Assembly: GCA_028820655.1 (NCBI GenBank)
Contig: JAPPIK010000004.1
Span: 62,001-126,000 of the forward strand
DNA: 64,000 nucleotides
Direction: 5' to 3'
DNA from: Candidatus Poribacteria bacterium
GTDB taxonomy: Bacteria; Poribacteria; WGA-4E; JAJDTR01
Below are positions 17,042-25,622 of this stretch, piece by piece; the first letter of the stretch is position 1, and each line of letters opens with the position of its first letter. A program made the position numbers and the translations under genes. The notes under the pieces were generated by a model that was not told the DNA's origin, searched no databases, and was given only the letters and a program-made list of their open reading frames with translations.

Positions 17042-18298
17042 GTGAGAACAACTATGCCACAAGACCTCTCCGCCCAACAGAGAATCATCAATCTCCTTCA
17101 AAACTTTCGCGGGACCGATCCTCTAAAGGAACTGTTTTGGAGCGAGTTAAACTACGACCGCCAAAACGCCCCAATCCCCCGCATTGACTGGAATCAAAGA
17201 AACATATCCAACACGGCGGACGACCCGCTCCTGTTCGCGACAGGCGGAGAAAACTCCGATTTCCATCTGATATACACCCGTCTCGACTCGGAGCGCCTCC
17301 TCCTCACCGCTGAACGTCCCATCATCTCCCGCCTTCTTAGGGACTACCCCAATGCACTATTCATCTTCAGCAACCGCGAACAAACCGACTGGCATTTCGT
17401 CAACCCCAAATATGACGAAGAGCATCCGGAGAAACGCCGGCTTTACCGACGCATCACGATTGGACGCTCCGAAAAACTTCGCACTGCTTCCGAGCGGATC
17501 GCGTTGCTGGACGCAGAATCCTTAGACTCGCCGCTTGAAATTCAAAACCGCCACGACGAAGCCTTCGACGTTGAAGCCGTAACAAACGAGTTCTTCAAAA
17601 GCTATCAATCTGTTTTCCAGCGCTTGCAGACCGACTTGACGAACCAGACGAATGACAACCAGTGGGCGCACGATTTCGCCTTGCAATTCCTCAACCGCTG
17701 CATGTTCCTCTACTTCATTCAGCGCAAAGGATGGCTTGGTGACGACACCGAGTTTCTGAAGACGTTTTGGGATTCGTATCGGACAACAAATCAACGGGTA
17801 GACTCCTTCGTCGAGCATTGGCTCAACGTCATGTTCTTTGAGGCGTTCAATAACAAATTCCACGGCGGACACCGCCAGTTCCCGGACGAGATTCGAAGAG
17901 CGTTAGCCTCAGCCCCTTTCCTCAACGGTGGTCTGTTCACCGAGAACGACCTAGACAACCGACATGAATTCCAAATCTGCGATGCTAGCTTCGAGAGTAT
18001 CTTCAATTTCCTCGAAGGCTACAATTTCACCATCGCGGAAGACAGCCCGCTCGATCAAGAGGTCGCCGTCGATCCGGAGATGATTGGAAAGGTGTATGAA
18101 AGCCTGGTCAACGTCTCGGAGGAGACCGATGAACGCGGCGATGCCGGCATCTTCTACACCCCGCGCACCGAAATCGACCTGATGTGCCGGTTGGCGCTTG
18201 TGGATAACCTGACAAATCATCTGGGAGAGGAACATAAGTCTGCGCTCTATGAAACCATTCTCGCCTTTGACCCGGACGACAAAATGGCTGCGGACTAA
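17042..18298 (+). pseudogene. Type IIG-like restriction-methylase, N-terminal segment (ends at an in-frame TAA)
   Basis: This 418-codon segment is the N-terminal part of one long gene that spans 17042-20687. It contains motifs such as LQFLNRCMFLYFIQRKGWLG, FLNGGLFTEND and the helical lead-in IGKVYESLVNV...GIFYTPR that precedes the methylase domain in Eco57I/BREX PglX/type IIG enzymes. Right after MAAD a TAA (18296-18298) stops the frame. The next codons in the same frame (QLREKNLW, then LAILDPACGSG) continue the protein, so this is a single nonsense change. Start is GTG 17042 or ATG 17054; neither has a strong ribosome-binding site. Confidence 0.8.
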
Positions 18299-19234
18299 CA
18301 ACTCCGAGAAAAGAATCTGTGGAATCCCCTTGATGAATGCCTAAAAAAGTTGGCTATCTTGGACCCCGCCTGCGGTTCCGGTTCCTTTCTTGTCGGGATG
18401 CTGCATGTGCTTGATGATCTGCGGGAAAGAGCGATTCGCCAACTTGGGCGCGGCCAATTGAGTTTTGACCGAAAGAAGGCGATTATCGGTGAAAATCTCT
18501 ACGGCGTGGACGTGATGGAGTGGGCGTGTCACGTGGCGGAACTGCGACTCTGGCTGGCACTCATTATAGACGCGGATATTTCCAGTGGAGAACTCCGAGA
18601 GCTCCCCCAGCCTCTGCTTCCTCATTTCTCTTTCAACATCCGATGCGGAAATAGCCTCGTACAAGAAATTGGCGGCTTCAACCTTGCTCAGATCTTAGCG
18701 GACTTTAGTGGTGTGTCGAACACCTTGAAAGACAAAGTGAAAGTCTTGAGGGAGGAAAAGCTTAAGTTCTTCAACAACGACGACACCCGCCAATATCGCT
18801 CTAAACAGGCGTTGGAGAAGGAAGAGGTGACCCTCTTCCGTAAACTCATTGATTCTCAAGTAAACGTGATAAAAGGGCATATCAATGTCTTGCATCAAGA
18901 AATTCGCGCCGCCAGAGTGCAGCAATTGAACATTCACGGAGAAGCTGAAGCCCCGGGTGCCGGCGAACTAGACCGCGACACCCAACAGTGGCAGGAACAA
19001 ATTAAAACTCACCCTGTACACTGCGACGAACTCAAGCAAACTTGGTTCGCTATCGGAAACACCCCTACTTTGCCGTTTGTCTGGGACATCGCCTTCGTCC
19101 AAATCTTCGCCGCTGAGGGAAGCGGATTCGACATCGTCATCGGCAACCCGCCTTACGTTCGGCAAGAAAATATCGCCGACCCGAATCTCCCGCGCGAGAA
19201 CATTACACCCGAGAACCAGAAAGCCCAAAAAAAA
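18299..19234 (+). pseudogene. Same restriction-methylase, adenine methylase core
   Basis: This segment, in the same frame as the previous one, holds the SAM-binding motif I LDPACGSGSFLVGM, the segment GVDVMEWACHVAELRLWL and the catalytic motif IV NPPY (IGNPPYVRQ, near 19147), which mark N6-adenine methylation. A helical insertion lies between them. Translation on its own could start at the ATG 18350 (the frame reads MAILDPACGSG from TTG). After ENQKAQKK the frame is lost in a run of nine A residues (19227-19235); eight A residues would restore it. The catalytic core itself is undamaged. Confidence 0.8.
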
Positions 19235-20687
19235 AGCCTACAAAGCCAAACTTGCACGTTCGGTGTATCAAGCTTTTCCCGATTTCTTTGGCTACAAACG
19301 CCATAAGGACGAATCTGACAATCCGTCCGCCGCCGTCTCTAAGAGACTCAATGCCCAAAGCGACCTCTACATCTACTTCTATTTTCACGGACTTTCCGTC
19401 CTCAACCCTAAAGGCTCGTTCTGTTTCATCACCTCCAATTCGTGGCTGGATGTCGGATACGGCAAAGACCTTCAAGAGTTCCTCCTGAAACACTGCCACA
19501 TCAAGCAGATTATCGACAACCAGGCGCGGCGTTCCTTCGCCTCCGCCGACGTGAACACCGTCATCTGTCTCTTCTCTGCACCTGAAGAAGAACGCGGGGC
19601 GGTCTTAGATACAACCGCACGGTTTGTGATGTTCAAGACTCCCTTTGAGGGGGTGCTGGATCCGGTGATCTTTGAGGAAGTGGAGAAAGCGAACGAACGC
19701 ACCAACACCCCGGAGCACCGCATCTTTCCCGTTCCTCAACGTAAACTCTTGGAATCGGGCGGCGACTATCAAACTCCGGTCAAATACACCGGCGATAAGT
19801 GGGGCGGGAAATACCTTCGCGCCCCCGACATCTACTGGACGATTTTGGAGAAGGGAAGGGACAAGTTGGTGCGTTTGGGCGATATAGCAGAGGTGCGACG
19901 AGGTATTACAACGGGAGCGAACGAGTTTTTCTACCTTGATGCGGAAGCAGTGGAGCGATGGGAAATTGAGGAGGAGTTCCTGAAGCCCGTCATCTATTCG
20001 CTGCGGGAATTGGTCTGTATAGAGGACCAATTGGATGGGCTTGAGAGAAAGATTTTCCTCTGTCATGAGAGTAAATCACGTCTAAGAGGGACAAACGCCC
20101 TGACGTACATTGAATGGGGACAGCGTAACGGCTTCCATAAAACGCCAAGCTGTCGATCAAGGCCACTCTGGTACAGTTTAGCCGAAGGCTGGAATCCTGC
20201 GCCTTACATATTTCCCGCGAAGGTAGGCGAGCGGATGCTGGTTTTGAGCAATCAAAGAGGTGTCTTAGAAGACAAAAAGCTGTATGGTGTTACTCCCTTC
20301 GAAGAAGGTCCAGAGTTCTTGTATGCGGGGCTGTTGAATAGCACGTTAGTGCGATTCTTTATGGATCTGTCATGTCGTCAACTCACCGGTGCGCAATCAA
20401 TTGCCGACGTTGATGTACGCGTTGTGAAAGAAATTCCAATATTGCCGACCGGCCTCATCTCGAACAACCAACACTTGTTTAGACTTGCCTATGACCAGGT
20501 AAAGTTACGACCAATAGAACAACGAGTCACAGATGAGTATACAATGCCAGATCGCCGCGCCCTTGACGCAATCATTTTTGATGCCCTCGACCTTACACAA
20601 GGGGAACGAGATGGGGTGTATGAGGCGGTTGTAGAACTTGTCGAGGCGCGGTTGAGTAAGGGGAAGAGTTTGAACCAACAGTCATAA
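19227..20687 (+). pseudogene. Same restriction-methylase, C-terminal and target-recognition segment
   Basis: The frame that resumes after the A-tract reads KKKAYKAKLARSVYQAFPDF, continues the methylase fold (GSFCFITSNSWLDVGYGKDLQ) and then a TaqI-like specificity region (GDIAEVRRGITTGANEFFYL; LLNSTLVRFFMDLSCRQLTGAQ; VKEIPIL). It runs to a normal stop at 20687 after about 485 codons. Together the three segments would make a protein of about 1,214 residues, normal for this class. The target sequence cannot be predicted. Confidence 0.8.
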
Positions 20688-20879: not shown

Positions 20880-22076
20880 ATGCGAGAATTTGACGTTACC
20901 TTGTCATTTGCCGGAGAAGATCGAAAACTCGCAGAAGATTTAGCGAAACTTCTTGACACAGGTGGCTATTCAGTCTTCTACGACGAATTTGAACGAGCAA
21001 GACTTTGGGGCAAAAACCTCTATCAATACCTAGCGTCCGTCTACCAAGATAAAGCACGCTACTGTGTCATTTTCCTGTCCAGACACTATCTGCAGAGTTC
21101 ATGGGCACAACACGAACTCCAGAATGCGCAGGCGCGGGCATTCGTTGAACAAAACAAGGAGTATATTCTTCCCATCCGTATAGACGATACGAAGATTCCA
21201 GGAATCTTGTCCACAGTCGGTCATCTTGATTTGAGCAAAGTAGGCGTTGAGGACGTCTATCAGCATCTAGTGGAGAAGCTGTCGGGTTCCCAATCACGAA
21301 CATCGCCAAACGAGGAATTGGTACCGAGCCCACTCGTAAGCGAATCGAAAGAATTCGCTCTGTTGCGCCCCGGTGATAATAACCTGTATTTCATACCGTT
21401 TCAGGAAGCTCAATGGAATTCAACGGAAATCTCTCTCGGCCTTCTTCCAGAATCGTCTGAAGAAAGTGCCTTTCTCCGTTCACTACGCGATGATCTTAGT
21501 AATATGTTTTCAAGTCGACAAACATTCGCTTTTGCATTGGGGCAAGAAGCCGCGTGGGTAAGTCCACAGGAGATTGCACAAACTATGTCGGGGACAAAAA
21601 CGGTTTGGAAAGTTGTATTGAAGAGAGAAAACCCCGGACAAAATGACGATCTTTTTGGAAATGTTACATTTTCGAACTTGTCACCAGATCGAATTGCTGA
21701 ACTCCGAGCGAGAAGAATCCTTCTTGATGAAAAGTTAGAAGCTGTCAGTTCTGCTTTAAATCAAGTTGATCTAATAAATCAAGCAACATTGGATTCTTTT
21801 ATTCGCGGCACGAACCCATCACTCGAAATTCGCAAATGCCCTATTCCCGACTTGTACCGATCTTTCGGGCAAACATGGCAGAGATTTGAGAAATTTGCCC
21901 GTTTGGTCGCGGTTCTCTTTCTGAAACTTTCAAACACAGTTCAAGACGTGCTTGAAATAGATTTTAAATTTCTAGATGCAAATCAGTTGCAGGTAAGATT
22001 CAGAGGACGCCGCCCACGTTACGCTGTAAACGCAACTCCTTCAATTATTGAAGTAAATGGCATTTGTCCACTGTAA
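20880..22076 (+). CDS. TIR-domain protein with unknown C-terminal domain
   Basis: The 398-residue protein has an N-terminal TIR domain (about 1-135): FDVTLSFAGEDR, YSVFYDEFERARLWGKNLY, YCVIFLS and SSWAQHEL, where Glu79 is the likely NADase residue. It is about two thirds identical by eye to the TIR domain of the gene at 24370. Residues 160-398 form a separate domain I do not recognise, ending in RGRRPRYAVNATPSIIEVNG. No membrane segment is present. An AAGGAG site is close to the start. Bacterial TIR proteins commonly degrade NAD or make nucleotide signals in anti-phage defence; that role here is inference from the domain and the restriction gene upstream. Confidence 0.85.
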   Translation: MREFDVTLSFAGEDRKLAEDLAKLLDTGGYSVFYDEFERARLWGKNLYQYLASVYQDKARYCVIFLSRHYLQSSWAQHELQNAQARAFVEQNKEYILPIRIDDTKIPGILSTVGHLDLSKVGVEDVYQHLVEKLSGSQSRTSPNEELVPSPLVSESKEFALLRPGDNNLYFIPFQEAQWNSTEISLGLLPESSEESAFLRSLRDDLSNMFSSRQTFAFALGQEAAWVSPQEIAQTMSGTKTVWKVVLKRENPGQNDDLFGNVTFSNLSPDRIAELRARRILLDEKLEAVSSALNQVDLINQATLDSFIRGTNPSLEIRKCPIPDLYRSFGQTWQRFEKFARLVAVLFLKLSNTVQDVLEIDFKFLDANQLQVRFRGRRPRYAVNATPSIIEVNGICPL

Positions 22077-22215: not shown

Positions 22216-22935
22216 ATGGCTAGAAAAATCTTCGTTTCGTACAAGCATTCCGATCGCAACGTGGCACCTCTAAACGGTCAAATGATCGCTCGCGAATATG
22301 TCGATGAATTAATCAAACTCTTTAAAGGTGATGAGATTTTTAAGGGCGAAGGCAACGAGGACCTCAGCGAGTTCAAGGATGAAACGATTCAGACTCATTT
22401 GAAAGACAAAATCTACGACAGTAGCATTACCCTAGTGCTACTGTCGCCCAATATGAAGAATGCGTACGAAGATGAATCTAACCAATGGATTCCAAGGGAG
22501 ATTTCGTATTCGTTAAAAGAGATTGCACGCCAAGGACGTAAAAGTCGTACTAATGGGATGCTCGCGGTCGTGTTACCGGATCAATATTGGTCATACGCTT
22601 ATTTCCTTGAAAATAACACTTGCCCTGTTTGTCATTGTACAACTCACCATACAAACAGGCTGTTTCAGATACTTCGAGAGAATATGTTCAACATAAAGGA
22701 GCCTACATTTAACCCGTGTTGGAACCATTTGAGCACCAATCTTGTCTACACCGGGCTGTTTTCCTACATTCATCCCGTCAGATGGTGCGATTTTATAAAA
22801 AACACAGAGGCAAACCTGAAAATAGCTGAGGATATCAGAGAAAACATTGATGCTTACAACCTTACTAAGGTGGTGAAGGATTACGTTAGGAAATCGACTG
22901 GGAATGAACTAGGTGGATATACCGCCAACTTTTAA
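22216..22935 (+). CDS. ThsB-like TIR-domain protein
   Basis: The 239-residue protein opens with [13 protein letters not shown] and continues with [14 protein letters not shown] and [13 protein letters not shown]. These are hallmarks of the DUF1863/ThsB-like TIR group, distinct from the TIR type of its two neighbours. Glu95 in WIPRE is the expected catalytic residue. In Thoeris systems such a protein makes a cyclic or modified ADP-ribose signal that activates an effector. No ThsA gene is nearby; instead the next gene, 20 bases on, encodes a small membrane protein. A CPVCHC segment (around residue 137) could bind metal. Confidence 0.88.
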
Positions 22936-22955
22936 TCTTGAGATTGGAGGAAAAA

Positions 22956-23369
22956 ATGAACGGCACTGAAAAGGTAGTTGAGCATTTGAATATAACCCAA
23001 GCTGTCATAAACAGATTGGGAAGAAACAGTTTCTTAGTAAAAAGTTGGAGTATGACAATAATTGCGGCAGCCATGGTTTTAATCGCTAAACACGAGGTCG
23101 AGAATCCCAATTTTGTTTTGGCGTTAGTTTTCCCCGTTGTAGGCTTTTGGATTCTTGACGGATACTTCCTCTGGCAGGAGCGCCTGTTCCGAAAAGTCTA
23201 CGACAAAGTCAGAGTCCAACCTGACACCGACTTTCAGATGGACGTTGCCAAACACAGAGGTAAACCGAAATGTAGCTGGGTATCGGCGATCTTCTCTGTC
23301 ACGCTCGTCATCTTTTACTTGATTGAAATTGCCTTTACGGCGTTTTTGTTCTTTATTGTTAAAGCTTAA
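22956..23369 (+). CDS. Small membrane protein paired with the TIR gene
   Basis: The 137-residue protein starts at ATG 22956, which follows TTGGAGGAAAAA. It has three likely membrane segments (about 32-45, 52-73 and 110-134), a cytoplasmic-looking basic/acidic loop (residues 74-108, LFRKVYDKVRVQPDTDFQMD) and an amphipathic N-terminus. The gap of 20 bases to the ThsB-like gene implies co-expression. I believe I have seen this type of protein beside ThsB-like TIR genes in other genomes, but cannot confirm it here. A membrane effector or anchor role is inference. A decayed second copy lies at 25780-26096. Confidence 0.8.
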   Translation: MNGTEKVVEHLNITQAVINRLGRNSFLVKSWSMTIIAAAMVLIAKHEVENPNFVLALVFPVVGFWILDGYFLWQERLFRKVYDKVRVQPDTDFQMDVAKHRGKPKCSWVSAIFSVTLVIFYLIEIAFTAFLFFIVKA

Positions 23370-24369: not shown

Positions 24370-24978
24370 ATGAAAAAGTATGATGTCGCCCTATCCTTTG
24401 CCGGAGAAGATCGCGTTCACGCCAAGGAACTGGCTAAGCTTCTTAAGTCCGGAGGCTATCGGGTGTTTTACGACGACTATGAAAAACCTCGTCTTTGGGG
24501 GAAGAATCTCTACGACGAACTGTCATCGCTTTATCAAGACCAGGCGCGATACTGCGTGATGTTCCTGTCCGAACACTATGCCCGAAATTGGTGGCCCAAC
24601 CACGAACGCGAGAGCGCACAGGCAAGAGTTTTTATCGAAAAGAATCGGGAGTATATTCTCCCCATCCGTCTTGACGACACAAAGATCCCAGGACTATTGA
24701 TGACAGTAGGATATCTCGATTTGCGATCCATGAATATTCAGCAAGTTTACCACGTTCTGAAGCAAAAATTGGCAGGTGCCAAAACTCAAGATAAAAACCG
24801 GGATAAGCCGCAGTCCCGCGAAGATTTTATTGCTATCGCACGAGAACATGCAAATATAGGCGGGTGGTACGATGAATCTATGCTTGAGGAAATCGGGCGA
24901 GCCATCTACAATTCATGGCAAGGTGAGGAAATCATCGAAAACTACGATGAAGCATGGAAAACTCTGGGCAATCTTTGA
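24370..24978 (+). CDS. TIR domain fused to a probable antitoxin-like tail
   Basis: The 202-residue protein has a TIR domain (1-135; DVALSFAGEDR, VFYDDYEKPRLWGKNLY, Glu79 in WWPNHE) closely related to the one at 20880. A linker follows, then a 58-residue acidic tail beginning SREDFIAIAREHANIGGWYD and ending WQGEEIIENYDEAWKTLGNL. Its stop codon overlaps (TTTGAGG) the TTG that starts the Doc-like frame, as antitoxin genes overlap Doc genes. I therefore infer that the tail works as the Doc antitoxin. An AAGGAG site lies upstream. The fusion is seen; the antitoxin function is a hypothesis. Confidence 0.8.
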   Translation: MKKYDVALSFAGEDRVHAKELAKLLKSGGYRVFYDDYEKPRLWGKNLYDELSSLYQDQARYCVMFLSEHYARNWWPNHERESAQARVFIEKNREYILPIRLDDTKIPGLLMTVGYLDLRSMNIQQVYHVLKQKLAGAKTQDKNRDKPQSREDFIAIAREHANIGGWYDESMLEEIGRAIYNSWQGEEIIENYDEAWKTLGNL

Positions 24979-25339
24979 GGTACTTGACATTTGAAGATAT
25001 TCTGATCGTTGCTCAGAGGCATATCGGCAACTATTGAAGGAAAATCAACTGCGTTATTTGGTCCAAATGGTGGGTGAGCAGTTGGACGACAAGGAACTAT
25101 TTCCAACCTTGCCGATAAAAGCTGCGTTTTATGCCCATCACATCATTGCGGGCCATATATTCTTGGACGGCAACAAGCGTATCGGCTTAGATTGTGCTCT
25201 TTGGTTTCTGACAATGAATGGTTGTTCACTCCGTCGTGACATCAATGAAGCCATTATCGAACTTGGTCTCGGTATTGCCAATGGTTCAATCACAGATCTT
25301 GAAGCAATCGCAAATCGAATCCAATCATGGATTCTGTAG
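24975..25339 (+). pseudogene. Doc/Fic-family toxin, frameshifted near its N-terminus
   Basis: The first 20 codons (TTG 24975; LRYLTFEDILIVAQRHIGNY) match the start of Doc-type proteins, then the frame closes at a TGA. From 25034 another frame continues with FPTLPIKAAFYAH and the Fic motif HIFLDGNKRIG, and runs to a normal stop. Doc toxins phosphorylate EF-Tu using this motif. A shortened 101-residue product from TTG 25034 would keep the active-site motif but lack helix 1. Sequencing error cannot be excluded. Confidence 0.75.
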
Positions 25340-25412: not shown

Positions 25413-25622
25413 ATGCCGCACGACATAATTGTCAACCGAAACGAAAAGCTGGTTGAACACATCAACCTTAATCCTACATATACCGAACGAGTGCGTCTCG
25501 CGTTCGGATACTTTTTCCTCTCGGGCTTCCAGAATATTGCCGAAGAACTCAAAGGCGTCAAGGAACTGCGTCTGCTAATCGGAAACAAAACGAATCGGGA
25601 GACGTTGGCGTGGTTAGTCTAG
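25413..25622 (+). pseudogene. N-terminal fragment of a PLD-like/helicase protein
   Basis: The 69-residue frame (RNEKLVEHINLN, RLAFGYFFLSGFQNIAEEL, KELRLLIGNKTNRETL) resembles the opening of large SNF2-type helicases with an N-terminal phospholipase-D-like domain that occur in defence islands. It ends at 25622 and the remaining 900 or more residues are absent. It is a remnant, not a functional gene. Confidence 0.6.

Follow-up and report, generated by a model that had tools for sequence, protein, structure and literature searches.

The genome of a sponge-symbiont bacterium of the phylum Candidatus Poribacteria carries a locus that we read, at a probability of about 0.8, as a toxin-antitoxin pair of the Phd-Doc type with a TIR domain (or, in relatives, TPR repeats) in place of the antitoxin's DNA-binding module; it is situated in an island of restriction and PLD-helicase genes. 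In classical antitoxins the neutralising peptide is joined to a DNA-binding domain. In the window, by which we mean the whole analysed stretch of 64,000 nucleotides, the TIR domain, the Doc gene, the overlap of the two genes and the motif in the tail of the TIR protein are evident from the sequence, and so are, across the phylum, an intact relative of the pair and the decay of doc. Phd-Doc pairs are already known, as is the attachment of Phd-C peptides to other domains; the open-access literature yielded no description in which a TIR or TPR protein serves as the antitoxin of Doc.

The TIR protein and its C-terminal tail

The TIR-tail reading frame (24370-24978, plus strand) is a real gene, encoding 202 amino acids with a match to Pfam TIR_2 (E=1.3e-17). 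In the sequence comparison with the PDB entries given in Table 1, Glu79, within the motif WPNHE, falls at the catalytic-Glu region of AbTIR and PdTIR. This region is present in all three TIR-tail proteins found, each of them intact. The protein has the mark of the TIR NADases, a TIR domain with catalytic Glu, and is predicted to hydrolyse or cyclise NAD. The predicted structure of the full protein is of low confidence (mean pLDDT 44).

Table 1. Features of the TIR-tail/Doc locus and its surroundings, in window coordinates
Feature	Residues	Positions	Strand	Basis or remark
Eco57I-type (IIG-like) methylase, split over three frames		17042..20687	+	Island partner in 3/3 TIR-tail genomes
TIR paralogue, 398 aa, unrelated C-terminus, no tail		20880..22076	+	Usual form of the family in the phylum
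TIR domain, NADase-type	1-136	24370..24777	+	Pfam TIR_2; PDB 7uxr/7uwg/8g83/3h16 by sequence
36-aa segment between TIR and antitoxin-like motif	149-184	24814..24921	+	30-31/36 identical among the 3 TIR-tail proteins
Doc-partner (Phd-C-like) motif GEEIIENYDEAWKTLGNL + stop	185-202	24922..24978	+	Motif scores, controls; same tail on TPR partners of Doc
Doc N-terminal piece MENSGQSLRYLTFEDILIVAQRHIGNY, then stop		24954..25037	+	About 20-27 codons, ends at TGA 25035-25037
Rest of Doc reading frame, other frame		25034..25339	+	TIGR01550 E=4.7e-11; Pfam Fic E=2.4e-8
PLD-SNF2 helicase, 5' remnant		25413..25622	+	Similarity by eye; no Pfam match on the fragment

What does the tail resemble? The original prediction had taken the last 58 residues for an acidic, Phd-type antitoxin. 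The acidity is confirmed by counting (13 D/E vs 5 K/R), and the antitoxin assignment holds for a part of the tail, which is made of two pieces. Only the last 18 residues, which match a motif derived from 29 Doc partners, look antitoxin-like, resembling by sequence a Phd-C-type Doc-partner peptide; the other piece, a segment of 36 residues, is private to the TIR-tail proteins, with no relatives found outside these three. This segment is the most conserved part of the protein, with 83-86% identity across the three proteins vs 61-69% for the TIR domain.

The motif matrix comprises 16 columns and was built from the C-termini of 29 upstream Doc partners outside Poribacteria (viral, plasmid and genome records), with N-termini of the AbrB, RHH, Phd/YefM and other types and with the register placed by eye. 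The window tail scores 10.2 at position -18, which is the exact C-terminal register. As high a score is reached by only 12 of 381 C-termini of reading frames of at least 200 codons, all of them Doc partners or tailed orphans, and by one of 5000 shuffles of the tail's own 40 residues; the window's remaining two TIR proteins reach 1.5 and 4.0. The matrix was also applied, without adjustment, to 26 further Doc partners, an independent set drawn from other phyla, with the best-scoring upstream reading frame chosen at each locus. In 25 of the 26 the motif fitted best at -16 to -18 from the C-terminus, and 21 scored at least 8. The C-terminal peptide of Enterococcus faecalis Phd, SKQKHNELYKELVT, through which Phd binds Doc in crystal 9VZC (PMC13034048), fits the motif as well, and a Doc partner of a Moorella phage (EEIIERYRPALEELAK) is identical to the window peptide (EEIIENYDEAWKTLGN) at 8 of 16 positions. 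Tail codons show pN of 0.25 vs pS of 0.60.

Searches of Pfam and PHROGs with the tail returned no convincing match; a weak NCBIfam match, LIC10486 (E=0.005), covers it. Within the phylum the tail is matched over its full length by two TIR proteins (G022, 78%; G015, 76%), and more weakly, over only the last 17-25 residues, by many others. When these weaker matches were opened, nearly all proved to be the C-termini of TPR proteins overlapping doc, so that the search for tail homologues beside doc genes proposed with the original prediction was answered positively. The tail alone found no informative homologue among plasmids, phages and viral contigs, and the whole TIR-tail protein, compared with these collections and about 300 genomes outside the phylum, matched in its TIR domain, never with the tail attached. 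It is very probable, judging from the motif, that the tail binds and neutralises Doc.

Doc genes and their partners in Poribacteria

The Doc gene of the window begins either at ATG 24954, with a 25-bp overlap with the TIR-tail gene, or at TTG 24975, which forms a TTGA overlap with the TIR-tail stop codon (24976-24978); with either start the two genes overlap, as had been predicted. The predicted break near the N-terminus of Doc is likewise real: the frame runs into a TGA and continues in another frame (Table 1), and alignment with the intact copy of G015 reveals a short deletion at the break. The resumed piece is 83% identical to the G015 Doc, scores above the TIGR01550 cut-off and contains the core HIFLDGNKR at 25154-25180. 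A TIGR01550/Fic-fold toxin with the signature HxFx(D/N)(A/G)NKR is hence encoded at both loci, frameshifted in the window and intact in G015. Local decay of the island is likely, since the methylase and the PLD-SNF2 helicase of the window are broken in addition to Doc; an assembly error may alternatively account for the break in Doc itself. As the local toxin is broken, the local TIR-tail protein would be either an antitoxin left behind or a TIR effector working on its own.

A survey of Doc genes with reading of the genes upstream yielded 54 Doc copies in 49 Poribacteria genomes. At 53 of the 54 the Doc frame overlaps an upstream partner with a complete tail, and at the remaining one the tail is truncated. 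The stop codon of the partner lies in the identical overlapping register at 48 of the 54 loci and three residues further on at four, and the consensus end of the partners is xLDEILxxYDRAWKTLGN[L/I]. Of the 53 partners scanned, 50 begin with a TPR array and two with a TIR domain, while one has a short helical stub at its N-terminus. The TPR-array proteins with this tail over doc occur in about 50 Poribacteria genomes (L004-L072; e.g. L052:1097-1525). TPR-tail/Doc pairs are a broader finding than the TIR case and are apparently without a published description. All close Doc relatives found are from Poribacteria, the subfamily being confined to this phylum in a single scan of genome contigs. At one locus (G009, L115:3551-4369) a single TGA separates the TPR-tail partner from Doc within a common frame; the predicted structure of this frame, read through its stop, reaches a mean pLDDT of 62, too weak to judge docking.

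Neither of the outcomes that the original prediction had named as contradicting it was observed. A TIR protein with the tail but no doc gene was encountered once (G022), and there a doc remnant follows; a separate antitoxin gene was seen at none of the loci read. The search for an intact TIR-tail/Doc pair in related genomes produced one, in G015. The G022 genome retains the TIR-tail gene and has lost doc except for the first codons. A nucleoside deoxyribosyltransferase reading frame stands there in place of doc (L078:7687-8154, minus strand), adjoined by a fragment matching the end of a Schlafen/AlbA_2 gene that is present in G015.

How do these pairs decay? The Doc frame is open for at least 115 codons in 46 of the 54 copies, one of which (G052) diverges at its C-terminus. 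Nine Docs, G052 counted, are broken over an intact tail, and in G022 (TIR partner), G081 and G083 (TPR partners) the tail is kept and only the first 16-19 or so codons of doc are left. In total Doc is broken or lost with the tail kept in 12 cases, and the tail is broken with Doc kept in one. If both genes broke equally often, at least 12 of 13 would have a probability of 0.0017, a value that is only supportive because independence between the cases is incomplete and the two genes differ in size. The sole reverse case, which speaks against the main reading, is a second Doc in G015 (contig 21, L059), open although the tail of its TPR partner is cut at a Trp codon; the intact TIR-tail/Doc pair of the same genome might cover for the cut tail.

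The island and its known relatives

An Eco57I-type methylase and a PLD-SNF2 helicase, both broken in the window, flank the TIR-tail gene in G000, G015 and G022, and this placement is kept in three genera; in G015 and G022 the helicase gene comes after the TIR-tail gene, or after Doc where there is one. Further defence-like genes surround the locus. At 22216-23369 the window encodes a ThsB-like TIR protein (PADLOC ThsB, E=1.2e-75) followed immediately by a small protein matching the PADLOC candidate PDC-M50A. No ThsA-type gene was recognised near these two, which possibly form a Thoeris-like unit with another effector; in G022 and G015 the small gene is likewise present upstream of the TIR-tail gene. 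Between 23395 and 24320, remains resembling a VapB/PIN toxin-antitoxin pair are visible by eye, with an interrupted frame and no Pfam match.

With the Phd-Doc systems of phage P1 and E. faecalis and their AbrB- and RHH-Doc relatives the locus shares a Doc-family toxin with the HxFxDGNKR core, an antitoxin gene that lies upstream and overlaps or abuts the toxin gene, with one shared register at 48 of the 54 subfamily loci, and a C-terminal helix motif -16 to -18 from the antitoxin end, recognised here as a sequence motif. It differs in the N-terminus of the putative antitoxin, which is a TIR domain or a TPR array instead of a DNA-binding domain; no DNA-binding family (Phd, AbrB, RHH) or autoregulatory module matched this part of the partners. 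The closest precedent is PanA_Phd-C:DocD6 of Corynebacterium doosanense, a non-classical antitoxin with a Phd-C peptide appended to another domain (PMC10440598). In that system a SUMO fusion carrying Phd-C suffices to neutralise the cognate Doc in E. coli, removal of Phd-C abolishes neutralisation, and a sensor role was proposed for the attached domain (PMC10440598). By its motif, the peptide that ends the Poribacteria Doc partners appears to be of the same type, but the domain to which it is appended is an NADase-type TIR or a set of TPR repeats, and no Panacea domain was matched in Pfam or NCBIfam.

TIR NADase defence proteins (AbTIR, PdTIR, Thoeris ThsB, SpbK) have in common with the TIR-tail protein a TIR domain with the conserved Glu region, and differ from it in that its C-terminus is a predicted Doc antitoxin peptide. 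The protein does not group with Thoeris: its best PADLOC matches are PDC-S66 and, weakly, an Argonaute-associated TIR, not ThsB, and no SIR2- or ThsA-type partner gene was recognised among the reading frames read around the locus. Doc genes inside restriction-type islands were noted before in a survey of HEPN/PrrC proteins, which proposes multi-level defence for Doc in restriction-modification operons (PMC3710099). Unlike in those operons, the putative Doc antitoxin is here a TIR protein and the island combines an Eco57I-type methylase with a PLD-SNF2 helicase.

Origin of the fusion, alternative readings and possible mechanism

Could the tail simply be the normal C-terminus of this TIR family, with doc adjacent by coincidence? 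This is very improbable. The family has 24 members in the phylum, of which 21 have other C-termini and no tail, and the tail occurs within it only on the three that adjoin doc or a doc remnant; TPR proteins, moreover, terminate in this tail too, at an equivalent point over doc. The tail as an ordinary end of the TIR family was therefore rejected. A more serious contender, although we give it clearly less than an even chance, is that recombination joined a TIR domain to the 3' end of an antitoxin gene from a TPR-Doc pair, leaving a relic that keeps Doc quiet with the TIR domain functionally unlinked and the pair decaying. The TIR-linked Docs form one clade in the tree (support 0.993), nested among TPR-linked Docs, which suggests a single origin and makes one exchange of TPR for TIR the simplest history; the same TIR occurs as a tail-less paralogue a few kb upstream of TIR-tail in both the window and G015. 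The fusion could indeed be a dying accident, since there are three TIR-tail proteins in the data, doc is broken or lost in two of these cases and one alone has an intact Doc. Against a relic speak, however, the intactness of all three proteins, with the catalytic Glu region kept and the private segment 83-86% identical, and the retained position of the pair between methylase and PLD-helicase in three genera.

The tail might instead serve as a docking site without antitoxin role, by which Doc modifies or recruits its TIR or TPR partner or targets bound to that partner. Protein modification is known for Fic enzymes of the Doc family, TPR arrays are common as adaptors, and E. faecalis Phd leaves the active site of Doc exposed (PMC13034048). 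Yet the motif is the same as on classical DNA-binding Doc antitoxins, and Docs are lost while tails are kept, as predicted for a toxin-antitoxin pair, so that docking appears improbable.

If the locus is a toxin-antitoxin pair, the TIR-tail protein would be made just before Doc, translationally coupled to it through the overlapping stop and start codons. Its last 18 or so residues would form a helix that binds Doc and holds this EF-Tu-kinase-type toxin inactive. The N-terminal domain, seemingly exchangeable as it is TPR in most relatives, would most likely be the sensing, signalling or assembly part. Once phage infection, NAD turnover or some other trigger engages the TIR domain, the antitoxin may change its state, be titrated or be degraded, and the freed Doc would stop translation, as P1 Doc does, which inhibits translation by phosphorylating EF-Tu according to Castro-Roa et al. 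(2013), as cited in PMC10440598. Release of Doc triggered by TIR is a reasonable idea because the catalytic Glu region is present and because the Panacea authors suggested that the domain carrying Phd-C acts as a sensor; as a claim about this locus, TIR-dependent release is tentative. Similarly, it is possible but doubtful that the TIR NADase and Doc are wired together through one protein, whose C-terminal peptide locks Doc until a phage-activated TIR domain frees it.

If the TIR domain does control Doc, NAD depletion and translation arrest would be joined in one switch, which is directly testable since G015 has an intact pair. Such wiring would provide two sequential arms of defence, loss of NAD and then inactivation of EF-Tu. 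The Doc lock looks like a plug-in for sensor or enzyme domains, because one and the same peptide forms the C-terminus of TIR proteins and of the TPR-repeat proteins in about 50 genomes of the phylum. More broadly, if the wired arrangement proves true, Phd-C peptides would be portable toxin locks carried by varied sensors, TIR and TPR among them.
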